A stretch of 64,000 nt of DNA, from the NCBI GenBank assembly GCA_950295325.1, contig OX485809.1, positions 30,194,001 through 30,258,000 of the forward strand. Direction: 5' to 3'. Source of the stretch: Polytrichum commune. Lineage: Eukaryota > Streptophyta > Polytrichopsida > Polytrichales > Polytrichaceae. This document shows, in pieces, positions 5,776 to 52,958 of the stretch; the stretch's first letter is position 1, and every line of letters begins with the position of its first letter. The position numbers were made by a program, and so were the translations under genes. The notes beneath the pieces are model-generated. The model was not told the origin of the DNA. It did not search any database and saw only the letters and a program-made list of their open reading frames with translations.

Positions 5776-5779
5776 TCAT

Positions 5780-7851: not shown

Positions 7852-7855
7852 AGTT

Positions 7856-12555: not shown

Positions 12556-12599
12556 GCATGGGTAGGCCCTCCCAAGTATTTCTACACATGAGTGCACTA

Positions 12600-12819: not shown

Positions 12820-12821
12820 TA

Positions 12822-15273: not shown

Positions 15274-15355
15274 AAATCTGAACGGCTCTATGCTAGATTA
15301 TGCTAGGTCCGTTGGATTATGCTAGATTTATTGAATCAGCATGTCTTCTTGATCA

Positions 15356-17418: not shown

Positions 17419-17573
17419 GACCCTAAGGCCTTTACATATGGAAAAATTGGCCCCTGTTATAATCTTATTGTAATGTGTGGTTGAAGCCGGCGTCCAACCC
17501 AAAATGGGTTGAAAATTCATGCAATCGGCCTAAAGTGGAATTGGCCCGGCATCTAGGTGTAAAGCGGCCCTTA

Positions 17574-30003: not shown

Positions 30004-30005
30004 TA

Positions 30006-30432
30006 GGGCATCCCCAGGAGAGATAGTAAGCAACCCGCCAAAAATAATATATTATATGGTGTTTAGGGTGTTTGGGGAGCCCTCCATCTTGGGCGGGGCC
30101 GCTCATCTTGAGTCAGAGCCCACCAAAGCCTAGGCATACCCCCGGTATAATTAGGAAGCAATCAATAAGACAACGACACCTATTATCTGACATGAGATAA
30201 AGTAGGATATCGGAGTATCTGATATTAAAGTAATCTCTTGGCGGGCCGGAGGAGGGCCGCCATATGAACCATTTATGGCGTTGGAAGGCCTTTACTATAC
30301 CCGGGCCGCTTCTAAATTATGCCGGACCGGACATTGGTGGGGATCAATTTATGCCGGTACCGCCACCTAAGAACCCGGGATGCCCCATTTTTGGCGTTGG
30401 CATGCCCTATGGCGAGGCTGCTGGGGACGCCC
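30006..30432. mobile_element. PIF/Harbinger-like MITE inserted at the end of the preceding element
   Basis: A 427-bp unit with ends GGGCATCCCCAG and CTGGGGACGCCC (one mismatch). It is flanked by the 3-bp duplication TTA at 30003-30005 and 30433-30435. The target TTA was formed by the last T of the neighbouring element plus its TA duplication, so this insertion is younger than that element. The interior is GC-rich. Short frames in it are not genes. Confidence 0.8.
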
Positions 30433-30435
30433 TTA

Positions 30436-31811: not shown

Positions 31812-34800
31812 CCACCACCAGCTACGCACAGCGTTCGTTGGCCCCTTAAACAATGGGAAAGTCCGTTTCCAATGCGCGTCCCTTCGGGAGAATGAAAGAC
31901 ATTCCTCCATGCACGAGATTATGGTGGGGACTGGAAACCCAAAATTGCTCTACTACAAATCTGCATGCAGCACTACAGTTTCAAAGCGCAATACAACCAC
32001 AAAACTGGCTGCATCAAACTTGACTCATCTTCGACACTGCGTGGCATTGAGTCTCTGTCGAACTGTAAGTTGGTCAGCATCGAAATTATCATGCTGACAC
32101 AGATAAAACTAAGACTTGCAACTCCTAAATCCTTGGCAAGTTAGCAGTCCCTTCTATATCAAGGTTCAATAATTGATTAGCAAAAATAAAGAGGATTGTG
32201 AATTATTACCAAGTCTGGCTGGAAACTCGTTCACTTTTGAATGCAACCCTGTAAATGTCAGGTACCTTCGGCACAAGCATGAAAATGGAAAAGCGTGTAG
32301 AAAGCTGATGCACAGATGCAATTAACTTGCTTTGGTCACTGCTTTGCAGCACATTGCTCAGACCTACACATCAGTGTGGACAGACCGAAAGAAATAAGCG
32401 TAGCACGCTGGAAACAGTCCCCAACCTGCAAGGGACAAGTCACATTGGAACATGTGGCAACATATGTGGGAGGAAATTGACAGTACTGTTGTTGATAACA
32501 TGAACAACTGGACCTATGAAATATTCTGTCTTATCACCTAAACTCTTTGGTGATAAGAGATGCTGCTCGTCTGTGGAAAGATAATACTTCACTAGCATCA
32601 GGCTCTTCAGTGTCATGTTAAAGATGGAACTGTGCCAAACCCGCCATCAACATTTCATGTATATCACTCACTTCCACTCGAGTTCCTCCAGATGTTAAGA
32701 CCCACGTATTGACAGATACTCTCGCTCTTCAGCAACGCTCCCTCACATTAACAGTGGGCCACCCGGGAACACATCGGTAAATAGTATACCATCACATCAG
32801 ACCACAAGTTCAACATATAAAATACCAAACATTTAACGAAGACATAGTCCGCAAAACATGTTAGTTCTACATAACTTCCATGGCATTATCTTCACAAACC
32901 ACAGTGACATGCCACAGAGTGAGGATGTAACAGACTGAGAACAAGTATCTCTTTCAACGACAAACTTTATTCTTCCGTTACAAGAAGGCAATCCAGTGCG
33001 CAGGATGGACTACACTATCCAAACCTCCATAACTACTTGTGAATGAAGCCATTCCGTTCGCGCTCACGATCGTGGCTCCACCCTAACCTCGATGTCCTGA
33101 CTACCACCTTTTGAACAAGTGGCTGCGATGGACATAGCTCTCCATCCGTGTATGCTCCTACCAGCTAAAGCCAAGTTTAGTAATTACAACTAAACAAGAA
33201 TAATACACGTAAGCTGGCAGCTGCATCATTATGTGGGCGAGTTTCCAGAAAGACTCATCGGCCTACTATCCCTTTCACAATACGACTGGCGCTTGGGGAT
33301 CATCTTCAACTCGAATGCGTCGCTTGTGTAAGGCTACTCGCAGCTCCAAAGCGCCCAAGACGGGGTTAGCTGATGGAGATCAACTTCAACTCGATTCCGT
33401 CAACTGTATGAGGTTACTCGCAGCTTCAAAGCGTCAGAACACAGAATTTTGTAGAGATAGAGGACCGGCACATCTACCAAGTATTCGCCAATCCCGCCAG
33501 CATTCGGTGAATCGCAGAGCTCATGTCTTCACACTCTCGTACTTTCTCAACTTGCTGCTTTGTCCGTCGAGCAATAAAGAGAATAAAGACCAAGATATGA
33601 TTTCCCCCCGTGCACTTTGGCGACATCTCATCTCTGGGTATGTTGGGTCAGTAGTATTTAAACGTGTTTCCGTTATAGCCAGAGCAAACGACAGATGGAG
33701 AATATCGTATCGCGGGTAGCTCGTGACGAGGTTAGAAACACATGCACAAATAATATTTTGTCATTACCCTGATCCTTACACAGCAAATTTGCATGGAACG
33801 TGATGAGCATCAAAAAACGTCAACAAACAAGGGAGCTCCCTTCAGTCCAAGAGACGCCAGGTAAATGACTGCTCTACTCCCGAATCAGACATTCGGATGC
33901 CCCACCAGCTCATCTAGTGGGGAAGGCGGAGGTGTGATCCGGCAGCGGTGCAAAGTTTACTTTAGCCGCTATTGAACCGAAGGGAACTCCCTCGGCAAGT
34001 GTAGCTTGCCACTTACGCAACAAATTCTTTCACATACCTCGTATTAGACATGACCAAACCAGCCGCAGCAAAGCAGCGATCAGCAACCCAACAGATCACC
34101 ACGCCTCCAATCGAGCGCATGTTCACATCGTCATGCGCACCGAAACCTCAGAATGTCCCCCATCTGGTCAGTGTCTCATCATGCACTGGAGGCATAGCCC
34201 AGCCCCCATCTATACCCAGACCTCATCACAAATTAAAGTTCTGGTACACCCACCCATCCCGAAATTCTTCTGAACAGCACACAGGAACAAGACCCAGACA
34301 AACTCCGAATTCTACTGTGAAACATCGTACTCTAACCCAAAACGGTTCGAATGCATGCAGCGTCGGCAGAGGGATGCGAGTCATCACACTCTAACCCAAC
34401 GTCGGCAGACTTCGGAGAGAGGGAAGCGAGAAGTCATCATGGAACACACAACTTGAGAGCGTCGAGAAGCTAAGCTAATGGCCCCTTCTCACCTGACCCT
34501 AGCAAATAAAGGCTTTATTATGGAATAGTGCAGTGGCTCTGTTTTCACGGTGGAGGGTCAATAAGTGGTTTTTTGGTTAAAAGTGGCCAGAGAGTTAACC
34601 TCGTCATTCACACAGCGTTGTGGTATTATCCACAATCTCTACCACCTAGGCAGCGCAGAAGACCTCCGTCCACACCTGCTCCTTGCTAATACCCTTGCCG
34701 GATTCATAGCGCCTGCCCCAACGACAAGTTTTGAGTCTCTGCCGGGGTTTCTCTTTGCCACTAGGCAACGCCCGCAATTGCTCCGAGCGAGGGATTCCAG

Positions 34801-35925
34801 TAAAAAGTCGGCCCTTCCCCCCCCTCTTTGAATTGCTTGTGGTTTCATCTGTGATTGTTGCCGAATCCTTAAGCCTGCCGTGGATAGCTAGTTCGAAGTG
34901 AAGTGGCTCTGCGCCCTTCCCAAGTTCGGGTAGGTTGATGTACCTGGGGTTTTGCTTTGAGGGTGATCTCTGTGAGTCGATTGCGGTGAAGCTAATCAGT
35001 ATCTATTCAGTATCTAATCAGTATCTAATCAGTAGAAGTAGGAGAACATGAAAAACGACCCAAATAACACCACGTACCTGACAGTGATGACTTCAGACAC
35101 GGAGTGCTCTTGAGTGCAGGCAGCAAAGTACTACATTGCAAATCCCCAAGCAGGGCGCAACCAAGGAACGGAGAGAAGCAACTGCAAGATACAGATGAAC
35201 CAGTCGAGTTCGAGAACAACCGATTGAAGTTCGGGAGTTCAGGAGAACAACGTATCATCTCAGAGGAATCTGTAGGACACAACTGACTTTACTAAAGCTA
35301 AAGCGGAAGATCTACATGGAGTCGGGTGGACTTCGATACTCCAGGATTTTGACTGATTATGCTCAAAAATCAACCTGGACAGCGGCTTCGACGCTCCACA
35401 GGGGTCCAACTTGATACAATGCCGCCCTTCAGTGCCTAAATGAAGCTGGCAGCACAGAAGAGTAGAGAAGAGTACTAGCAGGTACCGAATTCAAGCGATC
35501 AGCAGCAGAGCGTCATCCATTTCGTAACTGCAAGCTAATTAAACTTCACAGTGAGCTGTAGAAAACTCGTCGAAATCACAGGGTTCCGGACAAACAAGCC
35601 ACAGATTCAACAGACCCACAACACAATTCGATATTCACGCCCAAGGAAGGGTCGTTTTTAACAAAAGGCGGGGAGCGAGCGGCTTTAACTAATACCTCGG
35701 TGTTAGCATCTTGGCCAATGACCAGAGACTGGTGTGACAGCTTTACACGTACGTAGAACCTGGAGCACAGGATGGCAAGTTCCAAAGGGTTGGCATTTAG
35801 GGTGGGTTCTAACGGGTTCAGGCCCCGCCCAGCAAGGACGCCACCTAGGATCGGGGAAGAGTAGTTAGTGACCAGGTGAAGAAACAAGCTTTGTAAAAGC
35901 TGATGATTATCACTTGAAAATGGTT
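31812..35925 (-). repeat. Right outer arm of large inverted repeat (near-identical segment)
   Basis: Reverse complement of 8461-12555. The right border falls at about 35925, ten bases before a recognisable DUF7869-like coding fragment begins at 35935, so the repeat appears to end inside or next to that old gene. The few differences cluster at the outer end. A short direct duplication of AGTATCTAATC (about 35008-35030) is found only in this arm. No domain was recognised in any frame. Confidence 0.9.
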
Positions 35926-35934
35926 AAATATTCA

Positions 35935-38530
35935 TCAGCAGGGGGATAGTGGGGTAATATGTTCACGCAAGTCCATATTCCATATACCAAATGAAAGGTC
36001 GATGTCATCATGGGTATGAGCAACTAAAAGGTAAGACACATGAACCTCTGTGAATATCCCTTTGGCCATGAACATGAACCAATATGCCTTCACAAACCTA
36101 CACTTGTTGCATTTCAACAATTATTGCGCTTAAACATGCAAAACATGTGGAAGAGGAATAGTCGGGATGGGCTACATACGTGGAGCTCATTATTCTTGCA
36201 AATATATGTCACTTCCGTGGAGTATAACATGATAAAGAGATGACCATATGTCGCAACCCTTATTAGTGCCCCTTAGCTTATTTTCACCGTTTCGCAACTC
36301 TAGCAGGTGTCACGAGCGCTAACCTTAACGTCCCACACACGTGCATAGTTAGCTCCCATACCAACCGCCAAGCTTATAGCTTGGTTACCAAACCCTCCTA
36401 CATATGCATTCAAAACTCTCCCCTTAGTAGATAGCCGTTGGTTAGGTGCGGACTTTCATTCGTGGAAGTCTAATATTGAGTTGATCATTACATTGCCGGA
36501 GCAACTCTACAACAACCCGAAGCATACTTGTCAAGTTTGCCCCTACGTTGGGCCAATGTACATGGAAGCCACACCGTTCTGTTGAGGGCGGGGTTAGTCG
36601 GCAACGCCGCCTCCACATATAAGCTTCTAGGACTTTGGGCAGGGCCCCTACCCCACCGTCAAGTAAACCTTTGTCTCTCCTAAAAGGTTGGGGTCAGGTA
36701 GACATTTTCCCTTAGCTGCTAGGCCTGGAGCCCCCCAACATCTTCAAACCTCCATAACTTTGTATTTTGATATTTAATTCTATCAATCGACCAGTCCATT
36801 GACAACTACTCTTTGCATAGATGCCGATGGACTCCTCACTTACCCCATTCGGATAAGTATTGAGGGAATTATGATTGTTCCAACCTTGGTAGTCTTGTGT
36901 GCCATTCCCAAGTCATTGTTGTCCCATCACATCACCCCTTGGAGTGCTGGGCACTGTCCCTAGGCAATGCACCACTCAAATTGCCATATCTCCTAGCTCA
37001 CACCTTCGATTGGGGAGTTCTTGAGCATTCTAAAAGCTGAACGCCATAATCTACCCAATGCTCATGGCCTTACCCTTGTGACTCTTAGTCTCTGTGGGTG
37101 GGAGGTGTTTTCAATGTGTGGGGCTTTCACCTACACTAGGATCACTTGGGCTCTCTCACCTATGGCGTCACAAGTCCCGGATGATACTCCAGGGTCCCCC
37201 TTGTGCCCATGGTGTTGCGGACACTCCCTATGGAGTGGTGCAGGATACCATTCGGCACCGTGGAAAAACCTATGAGATGAAAGATGTTGGGGTTTTTCCA
37301 AATCACGAAGGAGTCTTACGAATGAGCCTACAATATGATTGCAATCGCCATGATACAAATCCAATGCATTATGGGCACATATCTTGTCTTCATGTCCATA
37401 AACCATCATTTATGTTACCGAAAATGCTAGTTTTGTAAACATATCAATGTCTTTGTTTTTGTAAGCGAAGCAAGGAAAGGCAATCTTGCCATGGTCCATC
37501 TTGTCATGAATGATGGTCAACATGTTCCAAAGATGTTTAATAAAGAGAGCCCTTATGCATTGGTAAGTATTACGAGTGATTTTTTGCTACGCTTGGTGCT
37601 TCTCCAACTGCTTTGAGAAACTAGTGTGGGCGGCTGAACTTTAACATGTTGGAGAATGATAATAAAGGTAAGTAAATCGCATTTCTCACAATGAGCAAAA
37701 TTATCACCAACCTTTTTTTTTATGTAGTGTTTAAATTAGTTCTATGTTATATGGCTAAGAGTTGAAAGAAAAATTGGCAGCAAAACACATATGTCATATA
37801 TTTTAGGGCATTGCATGAAATGCAATAGTTAGTGAAATACCCTAAAATTGAGAATATAATCGGATTGTTGCCATTATAATAGAAATACATTTCCAATGGA
37901 CCAAGTAGAACTTTAAGAATATCAAAGAGTCCACTAACCTGGTTGATTGTAACAAAAAAATTGTTCAATTTTGTTCCGCAAGGCAAGACTATCTTGACTA
38001 CGCGTGTGTTGTTTGGCAACTTGCAGTATTTGTGAGGCATCATGTTTGCTTTGTCCTCAACTAGGGTGGTAAGAGTGGCAGTGGCTTGTTGAGTACATAC
38101 ACGATTCTTCTTGGTGTTCAAGTTTCTATGGTCTTGCAGATGCATACCACACTTGAACTCCTTACGGTTTATGTAGAATTTGGTTTTTGATAGCACAAAT
38201 ATGTGCCTCCATCCTATGACGCATATGTCGTGACCACTCATTGTGAGAACATTTACAAACACCCTGGAAGTGTATGTACTTGTCTATAGACCTCAGGTTA
38301 TTTGGTATGTCGCATTCTTGTAGAGTAGGCCTAAAATTTGGTTTGAAGCGCGAGTGTTTGGTCTCTAGGAAAGAATGTAAGGCACTCGCAATCGCAACAA
38401 ACAATTATAGAGAATTGTTGTATGCATGCATTATTTAGTGCTTGAAATCGTTTGGTGGGCTTAGTATGGTCTGATGTTGTCTGGGAAATCTCGTAGGCCC
38501 TTTTTCCTTCCTTCCTCCATTTCTCCATCA
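35935..38530 (-). pseudogene. DUF7869-like transposon-associated gene, split by a solo LTR
   Basis: On the minus strand the text runs from about 38404 to 37260, is interrupted by the LTR at 36249-37247, and resumes from 36248 to 35935. Recognisable blocks are MMPHKYCKLPNNTRVVKIVL (about 38030-37970), HGDCNHIVGSFVRLLRDLEK (about 37350-37290) and KGIFTEVHVSYLLVAHTHDD followed by IDLSFGIW (about 36065-35980). The last block matches VGHTHDDIDASFGRW in the gene at 47862-49262. The upstream part has Cys/His-bearing segments (CKCSHNEWSRHMRH near 38230). This family is found in repeats of seed-free plants; its function is unknown to me. Stops and frame changes show it is dead. The C-terminal end is lost at the inverted-repeat border. 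Confidence 0.7.
36249..37247 (-). mobile_element. Solo LTR, family B (copy 2)
   Basis: A 999-bp unit starting TGTCGCAACCC and ending GGTGCAGGATA, the reverse of the unit at 14282-15273. The flanks CCATA (36244-36248) and CCATT (37248-37252) form a 5-bp duplication with one mismatch. It splits the DUF7869-like pseudogene. Short frames inside (37021-37275 and 37094-37438) are LTR sequence. Confidence 0.85.
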
Positions 38531-40815
38531 ATTTGGAATTTCAAATAGAAGGAGAAAAGAAATTCAAAGAAGACAATGCACAAATGATAGAGGAAAAAGG
38601 TAATAAGATCTCAAGGAACAAGAGAAAAAATGATCTCAAAGAAGTTAAACTCTCTCTAATAGAAAGAAAAAGTCTGAAAATGGAGAAACAAAACATTTAC
38701 AATGTAGAACTTGAAGAGAAGATGACTTGAAGGTCTAAATAAAATGAAGATACAAAATACTCTCAAAGAGGAAGGATGGTCCAAAATGAGAAGAGTATGA
38801 AGGCCTCAAAGAAAGGAAAAAGAATGAAGAAGTGGATCAAGGCAAATTATGGAGAGGTGTGGCGATTACAAACATGAGAAGGCAAAACCCTATAAAATGA
38901 TATTGTGGTATGTGAAGAGGCAAGGATGAGGAGTGTCCCACACAATCGCAAGGTGGCAAATGTGCAAAGTCAACAATCCAAATGGTCGAGGGTTTGATTT
39001 TTCACAATTATATGATTAACAATTTCTAAATCATGTTTGTCCCAGGTTGTCTCATAATTTGAGGAGCTCATACATTGAATGATTATATTTATTGTCAGAT
39101 TAGGTACGATTAGACTTCTCCGTTACTTATGCAGCCATAAGGTATGTGGATGTTATTTGGTTCGTTTTTTCATGCTCTCCAACTTCTACCAATAATTGGA
39201 TTACACAACGAAACTTGTGTTGCATTAGCAAATCTTCGATGACACGTCTGCAAAAATTGGATTGGAAATTAGACCTCACATGGTTTAGTATTGGTTATTA
39301 AAAGTGTGTGTTTGGCGATTTCTTAATTGGCTACATAGGTTCTCCCAACTATGAAGTTCCCTATTAAGCGTAAAGTAGTTATTAATATTGGAAGACGTAG
39401 TCCAATGTGTTTGAGACATGTGTCTTCATGATGTTTGTTCTTTGATGCTAGCCAAACCAGGTCCGAGGTGCCACTAGGCCCTTCATCAAACCACATACAT
39501 GTCAAATTTAGGGGGGTCAATTAAGGATTTGACCCACTTAAGACCCATCTCCCTTATAGGTCCCCCCAATCATATATTTTCTGGTCACATAATCAAAACT
39601 TCTTTCATTTTGGTGTCCATGCTTAGATGCACACCTAACCACAAACCCCAATATATATATGAGTCCAAATTATTGCTATGTTGGAGTCAGCCATAGTAGA
39701 CCTGTGTTATTTGGATACATTTTCTTATGCAGTAACGGCTCGTAGGATATGCAAACACTCCATTATCTGTGTTGTATGGTTACCAAATCTAAATCGTGCT
39801 TGTACACATTCCCCTCATACAATGAATGTCTTAGTCCTTATTAAAATGACGATTATACTCATGTTAATTATGCGGCCATACAAGTCCCCCAATCATTACT
39901 TGGATCATGTAGTCCAACCTCTTTTAAATGCATAAGATTTTGGTGTTCATTCTTAGATTCACAAACAATCACGTACCAATAATATAAAGGTAGACCCAAA
40001 TTATTTCAATTTTGTAGATTTCAAAATCTTTATATTTTCAAGATTTTAGATTTGTGTCCAAAGTTTGTGATTTGAAACTTTAGCAATTGTTTTAAGAGGC
40101 TTCTGTGGGTGGATCTTTTAATTTCATAAGAGGTTCTTGAGTGGAATTTCAAGAGGAACACACCGATTTTATCAATTTTGAAAATTAGATTGATCTTAGG
40201 GCCTGAATCGGGCATTTTCTCTTGCTAGTCCGAATTTTTGAACATTATTCTGTGTGTAGCTCCATCATAGAAGGTCCGATTGATGTTTTAGCGACATTTC
40301 GGATTCATATAAGTATTAAAGAATGAGAGCCGGGATTGATGTACATTTAAGCAACAAATGCAACAAATACTTGTCTTTGGGCATTGCTATTGGCATCGCC
40401 ACTTGAAGGTGTGCAATCAAGGTGACAATGTTTGTTTGTGAGAGAGGGATCCAATTCGGTTTCTAACTTCATGAGGCACCCTTTCACATGTTTATTCGGG
40501 TAGTGTGCCTATTTTTGTATTTGTTATAGGCGCATAATTTTTGTTTAGACGTTTTGTGATAGTGAGGCTAGATTAATCATCGGCGAGACCATTTTTGTAC
40601 ACACGTGAAAACACATTTAAGGTGAAAACCATTTGTACCGTGTGTGGCGTTGTTAAACCTTGTGGTGAGACTGGATTAATGAGCAGTAGACCATAATAGT
40701 TTGTTTGTTAACATGATGCCCTATATGTTGCTCTATTTCCCTGGAAAGATAGTTGTAGGTGTATGTATTAGATTTAGTGCATGGTGAGGACCAAAAGATA
40801 GTATTATCGCTTACC
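38531..40815. other. No gene recognised
   Basis: AT-rich intergenic DNA. An A/G-rich purine stretch at 38540-38840 translates to a lysine/glutamate-rich frame (38533-38730) that is compositional. The last part (40200-40815) may be the untranslated leader of the retroelement whose gag begins next. Confidence 0.4.
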
Positions 40816-40819
40816 CTCA

Positions 40820-42300
40820 CCAACTGACTCCGACAGCGAAGGGGTTGAGAACAAATAACCTTTGGCTGATCCCAATGAGGGTTTTTAGCCTATTTCGACG
40901 TTGGGAACTTCACCGGTCACTCAATTCTCAATTACATGTAGTTGGGAGGAAACGGAGGACGATCACCGCAGTAGAATCCGAGATCGGTTCTCTAGGAGGG
41001 ACACATGTATTCCACTTAATGAGTGGAAGCTCCATTTTAGGACATGGAGCCGTGAGCGGAGACAAAAGATGTCCTATTTCAATGATTGGTATGCCTTCGA
41101 GCATTTTTCTCAACATTTGGAATATAAGGCGCTCCAAAGCTACGAGGAATGGACTGCAGCTCATGTGGCCGAGCTTTTCAAAGTGAAAAATTAATGGATT
41201 CATAAAGTCGAATTGGTTATGGTGTTGAAAGAAGGTGTTATCATGGATATGCTTTTTGTCCAAGTTGATAATAGTTTGGAAACGAAACATGAATCACCAT
41301 TGGAGAAAAAGTCTAGCTGATGGAAGGGTGGTTCTCATCCATTAGTGCTTAAGACACCGATGCATTATTTATCGAGGTTGGCCTAAGTCACGCAAGCTGC
41401 TATAGACGCTCTTGAATCTTCTTCTTATTTTGACCATTTACAAGAATTCTTCCAGTATCTCAAATGGAAGTACATGGGCAATCGTCGAGACCGGATGCAA
41501 AAAATCCAAGATTTTTGAAAGAAAAAAGATGATCTTCCCCAGAACCATGTATATGAGGTTGGCACAGTTTGCACGAGAGACGGGAAACATTCTTACATAG
41601 CAACAATTTGTTGACCTTTTTGTTTTTAAACATGACAAGAGGGTACATGAATTGGTCTATCCCAAATTTCTGACCAAATGTGAAAAAAACCTATGTTATT
41701 ACAAGCATTTATGCTTGTAAAGCGTATCGACAACGCAATTTGCATAGAAGAAGCGGCCAAACTTGCCGTAACAATGGCTTTGGAGCACTCCAAACTAAGA
41801 TTGAAGCATGAGCCAAAACATTCACATGTGCAATGAAGTTTGGCTGAGATGGAGTCCAGTCTGACTTTTAATTGTTGGAAATGTCGAAAAGATGGCCACG
41901 ACAAGAGGGATTGTCTTGATTCCAAAGCAAATAATGACAAGGAGAAGGCCAAAAATCCTTCTCAAAATAAGAAACCCCAACAAAAGCCAAAACGTAAGAC
42001 ATTGTGGTGCACCCATTGCAATCGAATCAACCACGATGTTGATGCTTGCTTTGAGCTTCACCCGGAGTTGAGAGCATTGTTCTCTTTGAGTGGTTCTTCT
42101 TCACCTCAGAAGAACAACTCACTCCAAGCTCAAATGGGTGAGCTTCAGGACCAAATGAAGCAGCTAGTGGCTTCTTCAACTCAATTTGCTGAAAATTGGG
42201 TTTTTTCGAGTGCAAGGGAAGATAATTTTGCCTCCACAATACCCCATTACGACCCATTTATCTACAAAGCTTCAGGAGAATTAGTCGGAGCAGTAGCCTA
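40820..42300 (+). pseudogene. Retrotransposon gag with two CCHC zinc knuckles
   Basis: The N-terminal part (about 40870-41640) has the look of a retrotransposon gag capsid domain, e.g. EEWTAAHVAELFKVKN near 41144 and FDHLQEFFQYLKWKYMGNRR near 41440-41490, with frameshifts. The frame 41840-42301 holds two perfect CX2CX4HX4C knuckles: CWKCRKDGHDKRDC (41873-41914) and CTHCNRINHDVDAC (42008-42049). They are separated by a lysine-rich linker and followed by a coiled-coil-like stretch (QMGELQDQMKQLV). Gag packages the element RNA and forms the particle. Here the frame is broken several times. It precedes a protease and a methyltransferase and looks like the start of one Ty3/gypsy-like polyprotein. 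Confidence 0.85.
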
Positions 42301-42304
42301 GACG

Positions 42305-42600
42305 AGTTTTGATGGACACATGGGCTCAACCTGTCATAATTGGCAAGCTACTTGCCAATGCGTTGGGATTGATGGCTTCATATTTGGAACCATGCCCATT
42401 TACCATCTTGACCTCGTTAGGGGCCAGAAAACGGGCCATTGGACAAACGAAGCAGCCTCTTCGTTTGATATTCCATGTGGAAACATGGCCAATTTATTCA
42501 CATTTCTTTTTGAAATGTACAATTACAGGTGCCACCAATTACAATATATTGGTTGGCTAGCAAGCCCTCTACCCTCTTGGGTTTGGTTTGGATAACTAGA
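42305..42600 (+). pseudogene. Retropepsin-like aspartic protease, active site mutated
   Basis: The frame from 42309 begins MDTWAQPVIIGKLLANALGL, the retropepsin active-site strand with DTG changed to DTW (TGG codon for the Gly). It continues to a flap-like region and TGATNYNILVG (about 42520-42560), which matches the strand before the second conserved Gly of the fold. Such proteases cleave the retroelement polyprotein. The frame shifts after 42560 and the substitution predicts no activity. It sits between gag and the methyltransferase. Confidence 0.75.
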
Positions 42601-42653
42601 CCGACGAGGCGTGAATTCAATTAGGATGGTCTTCTAAAGATGGAAGAAAATAA

Positions 42654-43977
42654 ATGATTCTAGTTACCTTCGGCGCATTGGCTATGTCCATGGCAACTAA
42701 AGTTGTGTTTGGTTGCATTGCAACCATAGATTATCTACCTTCCGGCGCTACTTTGTTGGAGGAATATTTCGCCTCAATTGGAGAATTTGAAACAAAGTTA
42801 AAAAATCCAACTCCTCCACATTTGCCGATTCGACACCCAAAAGATCCGCTTCCTCCTTGGGGGACCCTTGAGTTGTTATCTCAACAACATCAAAAGATTG
42901 TAAGTGGCTTGTCTTCAACCTCCGTGGATCCTTCTTGGAGTCCAAACACCATTTTATGATTGATTCGGTGGCAACCTCGTCACAAAGGTATCACCGTCGT
43001 GGAGTTATTTGCCGGTATAGGGACTGGATTAGCAGCAATCATGGAGGCGGGACTCTCAGTGCGAAAGTACATCCATGTGGACAATGCATTGGTATCTCGT
43101 TGAGCGGCAAGACATCATATCAACCAATTGATGGCTTTGTTTCCCGAGCAATTACCTCAGTCTGCAGTGGAAAAAACATTCTCAGGTCTTCCCAATGATG
43201 TTTCTCTCATTGCACAAGAAGATTTGAGACGCCTAGGACGTGTGGACTTGTTGATTGCATGTTGGCCTTGCCAAGGTCACTCACGTGCACAAGCAGGTTG
43301 TGATCTTGATGACCCCCGATCCACCCTCTTTTGGGAATTGATGCGGATCATGGATTGGTGGTTCAAACACCAATACACTCCCCTTGGATACATCTTGGAG
43401 TATGTAGCACTTCTAGGTGACACTAGAAGCAAGATTGTGGCAAATGGGCAAGATTTGGGTCCCCAATCTTTTTGGATGCCGTGGGAGTGGGTTCTTATGC
43501 TCATCGACCTTGATGGTTTTGGACCAATTTGGTTCCCCATCATCTACTTTCCATTGCTCTTGCTCGGATTTCCATACCAATGGGACACAAGGTAGACGAC
43601 ATCTTCGATGCCAACATGTCCTCGCTACCGGTGCTCAAAAACGAGTCTATGCCTTTGGCGTTGGTCAACAAGGTGGAGGCACCTCGTGGTGTATTCCCAA
43701 CCTTTCTAACTTATCCGGGTTCCTACGCATTTCGGGCACAAGGACCAGGCATGGTGTGGGATGCAAACACTCACACTTATGAGGTGCCCGATGCGGATGA
43801 ACATGAGAGAGCTATGGGTTTCCCCACTCACATTATGGTGTCACATGACATGACTGAAGGTCAATGTCGCTTTGTTTTGGGCCAAGCTATGGATTTGATT
43901 TCCTTAGTTTGGTTCCTAGGTATTTGTCTTGCCTTTCAACAGCACATGGATGACCGGTTGATGGCTCTAGGGGCAAA
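42654..43977 (+). pseudogene. C5-cytosine DNA methyltransferase domain in a retrotransposon polyprotein
   Basis: In one frame from 42654 a linker is followed by motif I VVELFAGIGTGLAA (from 42996), an acidic YIHVDN (motif II-like), and LLIACWPCQGHSRAQAG, whose PCQ catalytic motif IV has the Cys codon at 43269-43271. Then comes YILEYV (motif VI, where ENV is usual, with Asn changed to Tyr). After a frame change near 43430-43530, the frame from 43529 carries ERAMGFPT (as in the ER..GFP region) and the motif X-like GQAMDLISLVWFLG. The order I-II-IV-VI-X is that of a complete C5 methyltransferase. In-frame stops at 42957-42959 and 43101-43103 and the shift show decay. The frame of motif I is continuous (apart from the stop) with the linker after the protease. 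The element is cut at 43978 by an LTR, so reverse transcriptase is not seen. Confidence 0.85.
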
Positions 43978-44877
43978 TGTGAGCCCAATATTATGCCCAC
44001 ATGTCAACTTAATCATAAAAATTACTAAAACCTTATAATTGTGTTTGCTTGAGTAGTCAAAAGGATAAAAAGGGGTGAGGAGTTAAAAGTCTAGATTGAA
44101 GTGAGTTAAGTGGTAAGTTAGGAGTTATGTAGGGCAAGAGGCCGAGGAGAATTAATGGTGGATCAAGTTAAGAAGTTACGTGTGAGTTCTAGGGGGAGGT
44201 AAAAGCAACTAAGGGAGTGGGGAAGTGGAGCTTTAAAAGGGGGAAAGGCCAAGGAAAGAGGCCTAACCCCGTTTTTCTTTTCGGGCAGCCTGAAAAATGC
44301 CGGGCAACGCGAGAAAAAAGAGAGGCTTGGAAGGGTCTCGGGGGGCAAGGGAGCAAAGGCTCATTATGCATGGGGTTGAGAAGAGGGTGAGAGAGAAGGT
44401 GAAAGGGGGCGAAGCTCTGCTCCATTGGGGAGGATGCATAGGCAGAGGTGAGAGAGAAGGAAAGGAGCTCTCATTCGAGAGAAGGGGAGAGACAGGAAAA
44501 AAAAAAAAAAAAAAAAAAAGACTAGGAGAGGAAGGCAGAAGCGCTGCTGGGATTGAGAGGGGCGAATGAAGAGGCGGCGAAATGTTCCATGCTAGGAGGG
44601 GAGCAGATCAAGAAGTGAGAGGAGTGCATGTTGCCGAAGCCAACGATCATGCTGGCCAGCCAGGAGAATGACTGAAGAGCAAGGAGGCTAGGGATAGTGC
44701 ATTGCGGCGCGGCATGGCAGGGGAGCCGTTGGACCTTCCGGTGCAGATCCAGAGGAGCATTGTTCTAAAGCTTTGTGGGTAGCAAGAGCCCAACCGTTTC
44801 CGAAAGCTCTTGGGGAGCCTTGCAATCGCTCCCCCTGACTACGATGGTCTCTCAACACATGGGCGATGTGGAGGCGG
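43978..44877 (-). mobile_element. LTR fragment, family A-like, reverse orientation
   Basis: Starts TGTGAGCCCAATATTATGCC, the inverse of the family A 3' end. It truncates the methyltransferase frame. The body is purine-rich and includes 23 consecutive A at 44497-44519. The other end is hidden by the next LTR, and no matching duplication of the left flank GCAAA was found. The frame 44297-44569 is low complexity. Confidence 0.6.
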
Positions 44878-46180
44878 TATGAGCCCAAATTGTGGGCCCA
44901 TATGTGTCTTCAGACAGTGAAGTTGTTAGAACCTGCATTTGAAACTTCTTTTTAATTGAAAAAAACATAAAAAAGAGTGTAAACTTAGTTTTGATTTGGA
45001 ATTTTGTGTAAGAGGGTTAGTTGATACCTTGTGTTGAAGCAGTGTTGGAGTTAGTCAGGATTAGATTTTAGGTAGGGTTAGGGGGTAATTTTGCAACCTT
45101 GAGGTTAAACCTTAAGGGCTGGGGTTTATTGGTTGAAATAGGCTTGTTGGTGTTCATTTTGGGGGCTTGGGAAGGTCGTTTTGGGCATGAGGCCGTTACT
45201 CCAGTTGGGTGAGATTCGGAAATCTCGGATCGGAGGAGGGGGGTCCTCTGTCTCGGCAAGGGTTCCTAGAACTCTCAACTCTCGAAGCTATGTGGGCCGA
45301 AGGCGGCCGGAGGGCGAAGCTCTTGAGGATTTCTAGCACGGGTTGAAGGAATGCAGCTGGTGTTCAGGTGATTTCGGAGGTTAGTGGTAGCTGCAGATGC
45401 CACAACAGCTAGTCGAAGTCTACTGGCAAGCTGCAATCGTGAATGACTGAGGCTGAGGCGGAACCAGCTCTCTGTTCGGGGATACAAGCCGAATCTGGCT
45501 GGCACACAGGATTGAATCTCACGCGCAAGGAGGTTCCTGATCACTGGTCAAGGCTTCTGCAAAGAATGAGCTGACTATTGAATGGTTTGGGATTCCAGCA
45601 CAGAGTGTGGATGGGAGCTCGGGAGGATAGATGTCAACTGCTGAGGACCGAGGAGCTAAGGGGAATTCTGGAATCGGTGTGAAGAAGGACCAACTGGAAG
45701 AGTTGGACTAACTAGGAAGAGTGATTAAGGAGTAAGAAGGAGAAGCCAGCACAGGGAGCTCGGCCAACCACCTCGGCTGACGGGTGTTGACGGGCTCTGG
45801 TGAGAGGCAAATAGTGTAGATTCTGGAAGGGATGAGAGCTACTGAAGGCGGCAGACTGGTGGCATTGGGAAGGCTTTGGGGTCAGTTATTAGGAGGTTAA
45901 GGGTATTCATTAAGAAATGGTTGGGATTAGTAGGGGGGTTAGGTTAATCAATAGAATTAATTAGAATTAGTTAGGAAGGTAGACATTAAGGGGAGCAAAG
46001 GGAGTTGTGATGGTCCAAGCTGCATAATGTATTGGTTTTATGAAGGAAATGTAATGCTAAGCGATCACAAGGTGTGAGAGTGTTTTTAAACACTGATAAC
46101 CTTGTGTTCTCTAATAAAGAATTGTGAGATTTAAGAATGACAATGTGTAGTGACAGTGTGACCTAAAGATGCTAGGTTAG
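44878..46180 (-). mobile_element. LTR, family A-like, reverse orientation, truncated
   Basis: Begins TATGAGCCCAAATTGTGGGC, again the inverse of the family A 3' terminus, followed by AAAAAAGAGTGTAAACT, which matches the inverse of 47750-47780. Near its right side CTAATAAAGAATTGTGAG (about 46111-46128) corresponds to the inverse of the CTCACAACTTTTATT block of copy 1. The terminal 5' part (about 100 bp) is missing where the forward LTR begins at 46181. Confidence 0.6.
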
Positions 46181-47861
46181 TGTGAGGCCCAAACCCCCAC
46201 CCCTCTGCGTCTGTAGTCCGGGGGGGGGGGGGTTGGTGATTCACATTCCCCACTAAGTGTGCACCTACCCTTGGTATGGGTAGGGTTTAATCCTAGGCCT
46301 TAGTGAACTCACGGCTTTTATTTCAAAGCACGAGTACAAGCATTAAATAATGCTTTCTCTACATTAGCTTCTTCTTGTCACCAGTTCACCTCTCGGTTCA
46401 ACAATCCACACTTAACCTATTCAAATCTAACCACAAGTGAGAGGGGCTTTGGCCAAGCACCAACCCTTCACTTCCATTCTCCTAATCAATGTCCCTAATC
46501 CCCTACTTAAGCATGCCTAAACCCTTACATATTAGCCTCAGCTAATACCCCTTGATTAAACAAACCCTAGATGCCCCGGCTTCCAAACTCAGTCACCCTT
46601 GAGTCGCCGTAAAAGTGCGTTGTTCACCTCCGGGTCCTGGCCCGTCAAAGCCCGTCACCCAGCTGGGTCGGCCCACTGGTTCTGATCCCTTCAACCTTCA
46701 AAGCCTCAGCCCGGCCCGCTTTCGAGGCCCCTGGCCTAACCTCCTCGGCCTCTACCATTCAACAGAATCAGCTGCGTGCTTCTCCAGTCGGCCACTTCAT
46801 GCTGATCCAACACTCATTGCCCAGTCAATTTGAATGCAACCTCTTCGCAGCCAACAATTCATCCACCCTCACCAGCCTTGCATCTTGCCTTAGATGAATC
46901 AATCTGAAGGCCTCTCCCTGCCATCGAGATCCTACCCTTCCTGGCCGTAATCCCCTGTTCCTCTCTCAGCCTCAGTCTGCTTAGTCTATGTCACTACTTC
47001 CCTGCTTGCGAATCCTCAAAAATTATCCATTCCGAGCGCAGCATTCCACATTCTGAATACACCCTTGAATTCTATCATGTGAGCGGTGGGTAATCCAGCA
47101 ATGGATTGCAGACTGTGCGCCCATGAGTCATCCTTCATGCACCCCCCTTTCTAGATGGAATAAGTGCACCGAGTTCCCTCAGTGTGGGTTCCTCCTTATC
47201 CCCCCTCCCGATAGTTGGGTGCATTGAATTCGTGCTGCCGGATGAGCTGCTAGACTGCCGGACTTCCATACCTGCCCAGCCGAACTCTCTTGTTGCGGCA
47301 GCCTCTTGCCCATTCCACTACCCACATTGCACTGGCTTTTCCTTCCTCTGCGGCCACCCAACCGCAACCTTTTTTTTTAAGCAGCCTCCCATTCCCAAGC
47401 TCTCCACTCACCTTCTGCTGCATTGCATGCACTCCCGCAACCATCCCCCTTCGCCTCACGAAGTGCCTCCCACCGAACAGAGTAGGGTCCCCTCCCTGAT
47501 CCGGGAAACCAGCTTACCTCATCCGTTGGCAACTGCCTCAATGCTTTAATAAAACCTTCTCAAGGCCTAAAATGAACACCCTCCTTGCCTAACCAGGCTA
47601 ATAACATCACCTCAACCGAGGCTTAAGGTCCTTAAGCTTAACTCGTACCCTTAACTATTCACCCCCACTACTCTATCATACTTGAGCAATTTCCTTCTTC
47701 CTTTTCAACACTAACGCCTTAATCTATCGTCAGGCTCAATCCCACTCAAACTAGAACTTACACTCTTTTTACGTTTTTTTTTATATCAACTACAATTCAG
47801 GTCCTAACTCTTAAAGACTTCTAATCCTAAACACATGTGGGCACGTCAATTTGGGCTCACA
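46181..47861 (+). mobile_element. LTR, family A (copy 3)
   Basis: A 1681-bp unit starting TGTGAGGCCCAAACCCCCAC and ending TTGGGCTCACA, matching the copies at 215-1804 and 15356-17418. Unlike copy 1 it lacks a target duplication (GTTAG against AAACC), so one side was rearranged or deleted. It contains a run of 13 G at 46220-46232. The DUF7869-like gene begins immediately after its right end. Confidence 0.82.
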
Positions 47862-49262
47862 AAACCACACGATAGGGTCATTCACGATGGAGAAACCGCC
47901 ATCCTATTCTTTAAGATTGTTATTTGAAAACTTAGGGTCAACACCTCTATATGAAGCAGTCTTGGATGGAAAAGATGTATGCATGCACTCGTTGCCGGAG
48001 CCACCAAATGAGGATGTGATTGCCACGAATTTGCTCCCAACTCTGCGTGTCCAATTGGACAATTATGCCAAGGACAACAAAAGTCGATATGTTTTTGCAT
48101 ATTGGTCGTTGTTGGTTGCCAAGGGCATTTTCAAAGAAGTGTTTGTGTCCTTTTTGTTGGTAGGACACACGCACGATGATATTGATGCATCTTTTGGGCG
48201 GTGGAGCATGAAGTGCGAGAGGAGGATTTCCCAACAATCCCATTGTTGATGAAGTCGTACATAGATTTGGAGAACGTTCCCGTCATCCCCCATATGATCG
48301 AGGAGGTTCCCGACTTCAAGGCATTTATAGAATTGTATATTCGAAGTGGGGCTCACCGATTGATCGGGCATACGAAGGCACAACAATTCCGGTTCTACAT
48401 GCGTGACGATGGTGTCCCCGCCATGCAATACAAATTGTTGTGCACGGCACAAGACTGGAGCCCACCGGAGGGTCTCCTTGTATGGCGCGTTGATGGGGAG
48501 GGAAGGACAATGTTGCCAGACGGAGAGCCTAAGCCTTGCAAACCAATACCCATGAAAAATTTGGAGGATATTCTGAAAGGCATATCAGGTTTCATACAAT
48601 ATTGGGAGAGTTTGAGGGTATCGGATGTTGGTGGATCGTGTTGGCTTCGTTACGGAAATTGGATACAGTATTGGATACATGTTTGTGGCGCCTTGGCAAA
48701 CCTTCACCAAGATACACCCCTTACTTTGAGGCATGGATTTTGGCCGCAAACACGTGTCAATGTACAAGCTTCGGAGGCTAGTCTTTTGGGAAATGGAGAG
48801 GTTCGAGAGGAGTTTGATGTGGACGACCATTACGTTGGGCCTGCAAGTAATCGTCCCCCACCATCTTTCCGCATTGCAGTGGATTGTCATGAAGGCTATA
48901 TGTTTATTTTGCGTCCTGGAGATGAGACATATGCAAAGCCTGTATGGGTGGCAAGAGCTTTGTCCAAACCAAATTTTATAACTTCCAGCCCTCATTTTCG
49001 GCAAATTGAGGTGGAGTACTACCGACCAATGGCACAGAATGAAGATGTGGTTTGGCATTACACCGGCTGGGATACAAACCCAAACTTTCGGTGGAAGGTG
49101 GATTCGGAGCACGGTCCATCTTGGATAGATACAGATTCCATATTCATAGCATGGAAACCACGGAAAAATCAAAGTGGATCAGTGTCCATCCCTCAAAAGT
49201 ACATAGCATTTGCTATAGACAGCCTTGCTCGGATCGAACAAGAAGCATGCCACATTGAATGA
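47862..49262 (+). pseudogene. DUF7869-like transposon-associated protein, 5'-truncated, one frameshift
   Basis: The first frame (to 48249) carries VQLDNYAKDNKSRYVFAYW (about 48049-48105) and VGHTHDDIDASFGRW (from 48160), the hallmark blocks of the DUF7869-type domain. Around 48195-48215 the frame shifts. The second frame, 48201-49262, is open for 353 residues to the natural C-terminus and includes FRIAVDCHEGYMFILRPGDE (about 48867-48926), KPVWVARALSKPNF and VEYYRPM, an apparently separate beta-rich C-terminal domain. Because 353 residues stay open, decay is recent. The N-terminus is removed by the LTR ending at 47861. Function is unknown; the family occurs in repeats. The relative at 35935-38530 keeps the N-terminal half. 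Confidence 0.75.
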
Positions 49263-49990
49263 GAAGTTGGTAGGATTGTGTTTTCATAATAATTATAGTT
49301 CCACATTTAGCTATAGTAAACACATATTAGTCATATGTGTGCTCCGCAAAATAAAAGTAGAGTGTGGGTTGAACTTAGGAACGCTCCAACTCCAATGGAG
49401 TTGGATGAATATCCATATACAATATTTCATAACAAATGTGACCTTTATTTTATTATTATTTTTGGGACTAAATTGTTGAGTTGAATGAATATGCATTTTT
49501 TGCACGACGCTTCCAAGGTCGTAGTATCTATATTTTACTTCATATGCTAATAATAGCCATTATACTATATGATTTCTTTTGTGGGGTTCGTTTTAAGTGC
49601 TTTACCCAATGTGCTTATATCGCCAAGCATTGATTTTGAGATTAGACTGATAATATATTTGAGATTGTTGACAATATAATTTCGGGTGAATTCACGTTGT
49701 TGTGGTCCATATATTAATTTGAGACAAGAGAAAGTCTCAAATTAACGAATATAGTGTTCTGTGCTGGAGTGAGAGATAACTTGACTCATTGTGTTCATTT
49801 GAAGAGAGAATTAGAGTTTTTGCTAGGGTTTGACTTTCTTCCTTCTCTGTGGAGGTGTGTTATGTATGTGTGCCTTTGCTATGTTTTAATTTGAGTTGTT
49901 AGTGGTGGTTGGTATTCAAGTTGTGGTGACACATGATCGCTACTTACATGACATAGGATTTCTCACTGAATAGCATTTTTTCATTGGTAA
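49263..49990. other. No gene recognised
   Basis: AT-rich DNA between the DUF7869-like gene and the gypsy pol fragment. No motif was found. Confidence 0.45.
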
Positions 49991-49996
49991 AATGGA

Positions 49997-51800
49997 TTGT
50001 TTACCTGTTTGTGGCCGGATGGAACTAGGCATATAGTTCCAAGGCATGACCAACGCGCTCCCTTAGTATGGGTAGTACATGAGGAGTTGGGTCACTTTGG
50101 GGTGCGTAGAACATATTCCATGTTGCGCAACCAGTATTGGTGGATTTACATCACGGGTAGATCACTTAGTGCATTTTAAAAACGACGTGCGGCATAATAT
50201 AGAGAGGATTAAAATCATTTGAAATAAAAAATTATAAGGGAATTCCAAATAATGAAAGGGCCATTAAATGTAGACAATCTCATTATAAGTTAGATGGACA
50301 TAAAACGTGGGCCATTATTTTTTTGTAAAATTAATATAGGGGCTAAAGATAAGGATCCTAGAAGGTATGTTTAGTATGGTATGTAAATGGGTTTAGGACT
50401 CACGGGGATGGATGATAATTGGGATTTCTGTCTGTCCAAAATTACTTAAAAGGAATATAGAGTACAAAAAATTGCAGTGACTTGGAAAATATAAGTAATG
50501 GAAGGGTGCAAACAAATGGGCCATTTTTAAAATTTAAGTAACTATAGGAAGGCTTTAATTCAACCCTTGAAGGTAAATAGCCCCAAAACAAAAAACCCCC
50601 AGCCGCACGTGATGCACAAAAATGCCTTAGAGTGATCTACCCGTGATTTACATGTACCAACATGTTGCTACCTATGTTGGTAGGTGTGAAGTATGTGATG
50701 AAGTTCGATCAAGTTTCAACACCTTGTCGCCCCAATTACGTCCCTTGCCTATTATGGGTTTAGAATATCGATGGAATTTGAATTTTGTAGGACCACTCAA
50801 GCTTACACCACATGGGGCAAAGTATATTTTGGTGATGGTAGACCCTTTTAGCAAGTGGATTGAACTTATTGTTTTACCTCAAAACTCAACTACTATATTT
50901 TTGGATTATGTTTTAGTGCGTTTTGGAGCACATGCTGAGGTGTTAACTGATCAAAGAAGAGAGTTTATTGATTCCTTTGAGGAGTTGTGTACCAAATCCC
51001 TTATTGATCATTGCATTACATCACGAGATCATCCAAAGGCGGATGGTTTGGTTGAACATGTTGTTCAAACGATCAAACGAGGTTTGTGTAAATATGGTTT
51101 ATTGCGAGGCAACCATCATGATTGGGACCTTATGCTCCCATGGATAGCCATGGGTTACCGATTCAGTAGGCAAGCATCATTGGCTTCGTATAGACCTTAC
51201 TAATTTTTGTATGGAAGAGAACCTTTGTTGTCAAGTTCAATTCGAGAAAAACTTAATCCAGTTGTAGACTTGGATGACCCAGAAGTTTGGGCTCAATGTC
51301 TACATGAGCAGGTTGAGTTCTTCAAACGAGCCATGCCTATGGCCATGGAGAATTTGTTTATCACCCAACATCGTGATACGTTGCGATATGCTCGTATTCG
51401 TAATAGTGCTTATCAACCTCAGTTGCGAAGATTCTCCAAGGAAGATTATGTCTACTTGCAACGTGAGGCACCCATGACTTTGGACGTCAAAGCAAGGCGT
51501 ACAATCCTTCATTTGAAGGATCTCCTTCCAAGTGGCATTTTGCTACTTGAGGGGAAGGATGGACAAGAATGTTGAAAGCATTTTAAGAATTGCGCTCCTT
51601 GCTACCTTCCCATTGAGCGGACCTTACATCCCGAATTGGCGGTGGTGCTTGAAGGTCTTCCATGTTTTATTTGTAGCAAAAAGAAAGGTGCAGAAACCAT
51701 GTTGTGTGACACATGCCAATGAGGCTAGAATATGGCATGCTTAGTTCTGCCCTTGAATTCACTGCCTTCAAGTGATCAGATTTGCCCTTGATGTTGGAAA
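49997..51800 (+). pseudogene. Ty3/gypsy integrase with C-terminal PHD finger, broken
   Basis: Starts in the HHCC zinc domain (HEELGHFG near 50080, RNQYWW near 50125). A MITE at 50152-50645 intervenes, and the text resumes with VATYVGRCEVCDEVRSSF (about 50665). In the core, the first catalytic Asp of WxxDF is Asn here (WNLNFVGPL near 50775), the second is kept (VLTDQRREF near 50940), and Glu is kept in ADGLVEHVVQTIKRG. A stop near 51200 follows PYRPY-like text. The next frame, 51207-51575, is the integrase C-terminal part. After a stop, 51663-51794 encodes a C4HC3-like PHD finger: CFIC, MLCDTC, an expected GWHMAC whose Trp codon is a stop and whose His is Asn, then ICPxC with a stop. Integrase inserts the cDNA; a PHD finger reads histone tails and may guide it. 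Confidence 0.85.
50152..50645. mobile_element. hAT-type MITE inside the integrase
   Basis: A 494-bp unit with terminal inverted repeats CACGGGTAGATCACT and AGTGATCTACCCGTG (the T-to-A step before GTG makes 14 of 15 perfect). It is flanked by a perfect 8-bp duplication, ATTTACAT, at 50144-50151 and 50646-50653. One copy of the 8 bp plus the flanks restores the integrase reading between QYWW and the region before VATYVG. An 8-bp duplication and a CA-starting terminus fit hAT. No coding region. Confidence 0.9.
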
Positions 51801-52180
51801 TCCTTAGAACATGCTACGTCTACAGACAAACATTAATTGTTTCTATGAGGGATATTCACTATTGTCATAACAAAAACATTGTCATTTTTTGTGACTAGGC
51901 GCCAAATATGCGGCAGAACATAATTTGATGGGTGAATCACGAGAAGATTTGACAACAAAAATCGTCAAAGGCGACAAAAGATGAGGCACAACATTTATTC
52001 CCAACCTACAAGTCTTGTTGTGATGTTTTTATCAAGTTATTCCTATGGTCGTCGGCCGACCCTTAACGTTAACCAAGAATGTGGAGAAATATTGAGCTTC
52101 ATCTTTGCCATGGCAATTGAACCAACTACATTAATTTATGTAGACCTAGTTGATAGACATGGGTATCTTTCTCAACTAAA
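51801..52180. other. No gene recognised; possible 3' end of the gypsy element
   Basis: AT-rich DNA following the PHD-finger remnant. The frame 51981-52187 has no recognised motif. Confidence 0.35.
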
Positions 52181-52189
52181 GGGATAAAT

Positions 52190-52958
52190 TGAGAGTGTGT
52201 TAGTAACACACTCTTTGTTATTTTATGTATGGTTTTCTTATTTTATTTTTTGCACAATGTGTTATGTGTAACGATGTATATTTACATGACAACTATTATG
52301 TGGCATGGTGTCGAGTACCAAACCATGTCTTAGTTAGTTAGTCTTTAGCTAATTAGTCATCTTGCCTAGTTTATAGGCTAAGTATTATGTTAATACAACC
52401 CTCGGGGTAGTTACCGAGATAAAAGAGTTTTCCAAGAATTACTTTTGTCTTGTGGGACCTAGCCACCTTTTGAGAGGTTCTCATCCCCTTGCTATGGGAC
52501 CTTGCCACATTTTAGAAGGTTCTCATGCACTTGGTATAGGACCTACTTAAAGTTGGGTTTGGAGGGATCAAGGCACATCGGCTCCCTCGGTTTGGCATTC
52601 TTGCCAAGTCAAGTCTTGTAGTTGTGTATGAAAAAGAGAGAATTTGTGTTGTAATGTTGCTTCAAACATGGCGGTTTGCCATTGAATAAAATTTATAAGT
52701 CTCATTTCATTTACTTCTACACTTTTTGGTTCTCCCCATGTGAAGTGAGAGATAGCTCACCTAATATGAGTGAATATAGAGTTGTGTATGAATATTAAGA
52801 GAGGTCATATCTCCTCCATTACCTTATCTTAGATTCATTACTCATTCATTGAGAATGTGTTGGTAATACACTCATTGTTATTTTGTTGTATGCTTTTTCT
52901 TTTTTCTTTTTTCTTTTCACACAATGTGTTAGGTGTAACGGTATATATTTACATGACA
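52190..52958 (+). repeat. Diverged direct repeat pair, possible LTR remnant
   Basis: About 105 bp at 52190-52295 (GAGAGTGTGTTAGTAACACA … GTGTTATGTGTAACG … TTTACATGACA) recurs at about 52853-52958 with moderate divergence. The spacing is about 660 bp. The TGTTAGTAACACA-like start would suit the end of a copia-type LTR, but no complete LTR pair or duplication was found. Confidence 0.4.

Follow-up and report, generated by a model that had tools for sequence, protein, structure and literature searches.

The locus and its decayed retrotransposon

The 64,000-nucleotide stretch analyzed here (the window; Polytrichum commune, contig OX485809.1, positions 30,194,001 to 30,258,000) contains a dead copy of a retrotransposon whose family has a Gypsy-type pol and carries a cytosine-C5 DNA methyltransferase (MTase). 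On the + strand, positions 40781 to 43978 hold a gag, then a protease, then the MTase, all of them broken. The gag remnant (40781 to 42304) opens with an ATG at 40781 and has two CCHC knuckles (41873-41914 and 42008-42049); its frame has 14 stops, the final one (42299) at its extreme end, and tblastn aligned it with intact copies of the family's first open reading frame (ORF1) at 34-35% identity. The aspartic protease remnant (42306 to 42557, +), recognized from its translation and from a tblastn match running from ORF1 residue 723/725 onward, reads RVLMDTWAQP, with DTW replacing DTG. A linker (42558 to 42959, +) in the frame common to protease and MTase carries TAG, TAG, TGA, TAA, and TGA and leads into the MTase (42960 to 43978, +), which is DNMT3-like with a linear motif order, matches Pfam PF00145, and is 54-59% identical to intact copies by tblastn. 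Its motif IV, PCQGHS, lies at 43266-43283, followed by a degenerate ENV, ERAMGFP, and GQAMDL. Six stops interrupt the protease/MTase frame before 43593 (TAG 42558, TAG 42597, TGA 42612, TAA 42651, TGA 42957, and TGA 43101); the MTase match then shifts frame at about 43440-43454, and a further TGA stands at 43511. Pfam assigned DNA_methylase to the ORF at 43104-43595 (E = 4.5e-9), and the ORFs at 41837-42301 and 43514-44038 gave no notable Pfam match.

The original prediction, made from the letters alone, had described gag knuckles, a DTG-like protease strand, and C5-MTase motifs in order and in one direction. All of these are present: tblastn with two intact ORF1s from the same genome covered 40781-42304, 42297-43439/43451, and 43454-43978/43984, with E values down to 2e-179, which excludes chance resemblance. 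The claim that the motif I frame continues from the linker, broken only by a TGA, holds from 42654 onward (TGA 42957). As to the extent of the element, the gag-protease-MTase part stood, but the predicted start had to be moved left, to the gag ATG and a remnant of the 5' leader (40427 to 40599, +; blastn, 73% to the leader of the sibling copy L044).

Better-kept copies in the same genome

The 163-amino-acid (aa) MTase ORF of the window was used to search the 407.8-Mb genome, and 150 of 521 candidate copies were scored, the window itself included. The matched stretch is free of stops in 122 of them, and 27 have stop-free frames of 1340-1386 aa. The window copy represents a divergent subfamily, since the other copies are only 48-69% identical to its protein piece. 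Ten locus pairs were fetched for reading of the full element. Five fetched copies (L031, L033, L035, L037, and L049) have an uninterrupted ORF1 of 1360-1386 aa comprising gag, protease, and MTase. A second ORF (ORF2; 1045-1048 aa) follows directly, in the same frame and after one stop, in L031, L037, and L049; in L033 and L035 it is truncated where the locus stops or disrupted by frame changes. Pfam was run on two of the copies: the MTase of ORF1 scored above the cut-off and CCHC or protease matches below it, and ORF2 gave RVT_1 (reverse transcriptase, RT), RNase H, H2C2 and rve integrase, and PHD. The better-kept copies read A1 - ORF1 (gag, CCHC, aspartic protease, C5-MTase) - UAG - ORF2 (RT, RNase H, DDE integrase, PHD finger) - B1 - A2 - B2, where A and B are terminal repeat segments. 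The family thus has recent, well-kept copies in this genome, and the original identification of a retrotransposon with an MTase behind gag and protease is supported by the single ORF of the five copies and by the RT-RNase H-integrase-PHD ORF that follows in the two annotated ones.

Taken by itself, the window copy, with its insertions and its frame shifts between parts, could be read as two elements set side by side by nested insertion, one supplying gag and protease and the other the MTase, and the original prediction had named this as a result that would overturn it. The intact single ORFs, two of them confirmed with Pfam, rule this out for all practical purposes. The protease also precedes the MTase in 31 of 32 loci (L026 had no match in the piece examined), and the same order was seen in 32 of the 34 public homologues.

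One further copy, L057, resides on contig CADCWO010000201.1, which is filed as a metagenome-assembled genome of a cyanobacterium (Synechococcales) and bears a retrotransposon of this family. Because that retrotransposon is plant-type, L057 is probably contamination. It matches subfamily 2 at 89% in RT, 91% in integrase, and 68% in MTase.

Split terminal repeats and integration

Split direct repeats in the order A1-body-B1-A2-B2 were found in eight of the ten locus pairs; within its stretch L049 shows only two B copies, and A1 or A2 is present only in part in L035 and L037. The remaining two pairs, L045/L046 and L047/L048, showed no split repeats, which weighs against the layout being general. 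A1 and A2 are 97.3-100% identical in six comparable young copies and about 83-86% identical in the old copy L043/L044. The element ends are TGTCAC...ACGACA, and 4-bp target duplications (TGTC, GGTT, GCAA, TACA, and GATA) flank five of the six elements with both ends present; no duplication was seen at L043/L044. Two bases join B1 to A2 and form the palindrome GACAGCTGTC or a near-palindrome, a junction shared by L057. A look by eye for a primer-binding site found that the sequence after A1 differs between subfamilies.

These features combine traits of several element types. The order RT, RNase H, DDE integrase (two copies), the TG..CA ends, and the short target duplication are those of Ty3/Gypsy elements. 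DIRS/PAT elements do not fit, as Pfam gives H2C2 and rve integrase and no tyrosine recombinase in ORF2 (two copies). The standard long terminal repeat (LTR) plan does not fit either: A stands alone at the left and B-A-B at the right, and because there is no identical full LTR at both ends we place the element in the class of KnitGypsy-Dnmt3, described from the alga Klebsormidium nitens (de Mendoza et al. 2018, PMC5890265). With that class it has in common a Gypsy pol with a C5-MTase in the polyprotein and DIRS-like split direct repeats alongside Gypsy domains.

A probable right half in the window

A second set of pieces of the same subfamily lies on the + strand at 49937-52958. It comprises an N-terminal (H2C2) integrase piece (49937 to 50143; tblastn to ORF2 residues 578-646, 67-68%), an insertion with terminal inverted repeats of about 35 nt (50144 to 50651), and the integrase core and C-terminal part with a degraded PHD finger (50652 to 51833; ORF2 residues 649-1046, 72%; Pfam rve, E = 7.1e-9). 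Terminal repeats follow in the layout of the better-kept copies: B1 (52188 to 52291; 81% to B2), A2 (52292 to 52847; 72% to A2 and 71% to A1 of the sibling L043/L044), and B2 (52848 to 52958), which forms the right end of the element (...TTTACATGACA). Nowhere in the window did tblastn match ORF2 residues 1-577, which span RT and the greater part of RNase H, and no left terminal repeat was found there. Gag, MTase, RT, and integrase stand in series in the sibling L043/L044, which lies on a different chromosome and matches both window pieces at 76-83% DNA identity; its terminal repeats match those of the window at 71-81%. The gag-MTase and integrase pieces are thus likely, short of proof, to be halves of one element. 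The junction stop is unreadable in this sibling because neither the last part of ORF1 nor the first part of ORF2 was matched there. Between the two pieces, 43978 to 47861 appears from its inverted ends, TGTGAGCCCAA...TTGGGCTCACA, recognized by eye, to be one or more later insertions; blastn of this segment against itself gave no inverted match.

An in-frame UAG with a candidate readthrough signal

Of 32 loci examined, 29 allowed the first part of ORF2 to be aligned (L004, L014, and L025 did not); they include L010 and L049, the copies that supplied the queries. In all 29, decayed ones included, the junction stop is TAG and never another stop or a sense codon. CARYYA follows directly in 27 of them, the exceptions being L003 (CAATCT) and L008 (AAGTTA), and L057 has a single TAG followed by CAATCA and then by a 1047-aa ORF2. 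These 27 copies and L057 thereby carry the type I readthrough context, UAG plus CARYYA, known as the readthrough signal of tobamoviruses (PMC3542737, PMC4132726). Among public homologues, P0005 to P0019 (15 of 15) end 52-122 residues past the MTase match and have no RT match, which agrees with a stop at the same place.

Beginning at the 12th base past the stop, a candidate RNA stem of 17 pairs with three inner helices can be drawn. In the alignment 97.6% of its cells are paired, versus 36-48% when the stem is slid, and the covariation score, like the count of cells with double changes (13), is higher than in all 500 shuffles. Single folds gave z values of -1.2 to -2.6, and L057 also retains the stem.

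Several observations count against a conserved, structure-aided readthrough. The predicted proteins P0030 and P0032 span gag to integrase with no stop, so the UAG is not universal in the class. Stem pairs with double changes (3) are no more numerous than in shuffles (322 of 500), further pair types are few (499 of 500 shuffles were at least as high), and the stem overlaps coding sequence. We consider the stem likely to be real, although not proven.

The TAG might also be an ordinary stop, with ORF2 expressed by other means such as a spliced RNA, internal entry, or reinitiation; the stop context of the Candida Tca2 gag, for example, failed to direct readthrough in Saccharomyces cerevisiae (PMC2194720). 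The retention of one stop codon in every readable copy, its CARYYA context, and the continuation of ORF2 in the same frame immediately past it make this improbable. The stop codon is probably leaky.

A DNMT3-like methyltransferase with conserved catalytic motifs

Among 33 aligned proteins, the Glu of ENV and the Arg of motif VIII are invariant, and the Cys of motif IV is at least 90% conserved. In sequence and fold the enzyme is nearest to DNMT3A/B, and its motif order is linear. We call it DNMT3-like and not DNMT3 because motif IV is PCQG, the form found in a phage MTase (L056), instead of the PCN of human DNMT3A and the host DRM. Motif IV of many element MTases, GWPCQGHSxAGxGxGLDDxRSGLF, resembles that of the phage enzyme, while motif VIII, AHRPRWxWTN, resembles DNMT3A. 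As possible relatives, L056 and the Streptomyces loci L058-L060 were set aside as distant or short matches.

A host gene with introns was likewise considered as the source of the match, which the original prediction had named as another result that would overturn it. The sole host C5-MTase gene read (L061) is a DRM, in which motifs VI-X precede I-IV on separate exons, and is a different enzyme. No host DNMT3 was found among the 123 PF00145 rows of the genome, a list filled by element copies.

Measures of selection count against the proposal set out below. The pN of the MTase (0.224) is no lower than those of the N-terminal part of gag (0.229) and the protease (0.222) and far above that of RT (0.059); omega in subfamily 1 is 0.28 for the MTase versus 0.20 for the start of ORF2; 6 of 17 compared MTase segments of subfamily 1 contain stops; and between subfamilies dS is saturated, so that omega values there are soft. 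In yeast, moreover, the KnitGypsy-Dnmt3 enzyme gave no methylation, a result that its authors called inconclusive (PMC5890265). The same authors reported purifying selection on that MTase. Ratios of C-to-T changes to transversions in 17 copies (CHG 7.8, CG 2.4, and CHH 2.25) are uncorrected for kinship and codons and were not used.

As for its role, the MTase may act on host DNA or RNA or merely bind nucleic acid in the particle, rather than act on the cDNA of the element. Co-expression with gag would suit a structural, nucleic-acid-binding role, and the inactivity of the algal enzyme in yeast points the same way. Mere binding is disfavored, since it would not need catalytic motifs conserved to the degree seen here, and we regard this group of roles as possible but doubtful. 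Methylation of the element's cDNA fits best, with perhaps an even chance of being the true function. Enzyme activity, like readthrough and the purpose of the MTase, is here inferred.

Relatives in algae and bryophytes

A first protein homologue search retrieved 34 proteins from 7994 scored candidates, including predicted proteins of the liverwort Marchantia polymorpha and the peat moss Sphagnum fallax; the two homologues without an upstream protease match, P0034 and P0035, start with the MTase. A second search returned 52 proteins from 7983 scored candidates. Klebsormidium KFL_009030040 (P0040), which we infer to be the KnitGypsy-Dnmt3 element of PMC5890265, reads protease-MTase-RT-RNase H-integrase, and a Closterium protein carries MTase and RT. 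The MTase occupies the same slot, protease-MTase-RT, in Marchantia P0025, in P0040, and in the present copies. In P0050, P0053, and P0060 it lies between RNase H and integrase (P0060 was seen only up to the MTase); there the same enzyme appears either to have moved within the polyprotein or to have been acquired anew.

The MTase tree (66 sequences) and the RT tree (15 sequences) have the same main groups, with weakly supported deep branches and differing positions of P0050 and P0053. Element MTases group together against a partial plant host DRM, a partial animal DNMT3A, and a phage enzyme, at a low node support of 0.309; these three, all told, were the outgroups. In these analyses the branch of the window piece is too long, as the piece extends about 29 residues beyond the frame change.

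Whether the moss element belongs to the algal class or arose independently had been left undecided by the original prediction. Domain order, split repeats, and trees with common main groups indicate that it most likely belongs to that class, which looks like one old class common to algae and bryophytes. Separate captures by bryophyte and algal elements would accord with the deep MTase clades and the low support of the node uniting them, with the few outgroups, and with the second slot, which indicates that the position of the MTase can change. The shared protease-MTase-RT slot, the occurrence of split repeats both in Klebsormidium (PMC5890265) and here, and the agreement of the two trees in their main groups, for all the weakness of their deep order, render separate captures unlikely.

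Other features of the window

Beyond the apparent insertion at 43978-47861, long ORFs at 47815-49262 perhaps belong to another transposon; the only one tested, 48186-49262, had a DUF7869 match below the cut-off. Adjacent ORFs lie at 24299-25255, the first matching a DDE_1 transposase. A large inverted repeat (8461-18435 / 28583-37241), whose arms are 100% complementary over up to 3209 nt and patchier beyond, stems either from a recent inverted duplication or from a fold-back in the assembly. A palindrome (5779-6538 / 7100-7852) has arms 97-100% complementary, with about 560 nt between them.

Proposed expression and replication

We propose, with good though incomplete confidence, an explanation that joins the family layout as read, a leaky UAG, a joined-end template, and an MTase acting on the element's own cDNA or landing site. 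Most ribosomes would stop at the UAG and yield gag-protease-MTase; a few would read through UAG-CARYYA, perhaps aided by the downstream stem, and yield the full polyprotein. Because the MTase precedes the leaky stop, it is predicted to be made in gag amounts, above those of RT, and more of it would enter particles. Inside the element, the B1-A2 junction links a right end to a left end through 2 nt; it would be a copy of the joined ends and probably serves as the template for both termini in reverse transcription, after which the DDE integrase would remove the 2 nt and insert the DNA with a 4-bp duplication. Less certainly, the MTase would methylate the element's own cDNA, an idea of the 2018 authors (PMC5890265), or DNA at the landing site; a new copy would then arrive already marked as host-like.

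For the history of the family, we consider, at somewhat short of even confidence, a single lineage that acquired a C5-MTase before land plants and has carried it ever since in green algae, liverworts, and mosses, here with coat-level MTase from a leaky UAG and a DDE integrase working on DIRS-style split repeats and a joined-end template. To our knowledge, no Gypsy element besides the algal one has such a replication plan. Retrotransposons are a main target of cytosine methylation. An element that has held on to a methylating enzyme of its own, perhaps from a time before land plants arose, raises the question of how the mark benefits a parasite. If the proposal is correct, many MTase molecules would travel with the element's cDNA, and the element could mark both its own DNA and the place where it lands. 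The leaky stop yields a concrete prediction on enzyme dosage, and the recent copies here, together with relatives in the model Marchantia, make the question testable.

Comparison with known systems

The closest known system is KnitGypsy-Dnmt3, which, like the element here, has Gypsy domains, a DNMT3-like MTase between protease and RT, and, according to a figure legend, DIRS-type split repeats (PMC5890265). The two differ in several respects. An in-frame UAG parts MTase from RT in the moss copies, whereas the P0040 gene model continues without a stop; a PHD finger lies at the C terminus here, and P0040, which is partial, ends before that point; and the host is a land plant instead of an alga. 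LEAFY-domain matches in the genome agree with a bryophyte, probably a moss, although LEAFY is also present in some charophytes. The dinoflagellate SymbioDIRS-Dnmt3 is also a retrotransposon with a DNMT3-type MTase, but it is a DIRS element, and its capture and that of KnitGypsy-Dnmt3 were independent according to the authors (PMC5890265).

The stop of SIRE1 precedes env and stands in a context like that of tobacco mosaic virus. In-frame stops between ORFs occur, as here, in murine leukemia virus, Tca2, and SIRE1 (PMC2194720), and tobamoviruses have UAG with CARYYA, as at the present junction (PMC3542737, PMC4132726); the element here differs in having its stop between MTase and RT.

Among bryophytes, Mp_4g09160 and Mp_8g17980 of M. 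polymorpha and BDL97_09G086500 of S. fallax have a protease and then the same MTase (34-49% identity) and are labeled in the source as hypothetical protein or by domain name. In the literature covered (mostly the main texts of open-access papers), we found no paper that treats these proteins as retrotransposons and none on such elements in bryophytes. A broad DNMT phylogeny of 2025 places some DNMT3s within retrotransposons (LTR Copia and DIRS), with earlier reports from streptophytes and dinoflagellates (PMC12344493), and its trees may hold bryophyte elements. According to a 2019 paper, land plants, such as tracheophytes, have no transposons that carry a methylase (PMC6338049), and the 2018 authors described an acquisition in the K. 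nitens lineage (PMC5890265). The bryophyte relatives, as judged from their predicted proteins, contradict the former statement for bryophytes; they also widen the latter and are evidence against a capture limited to the K. nitens lineage.
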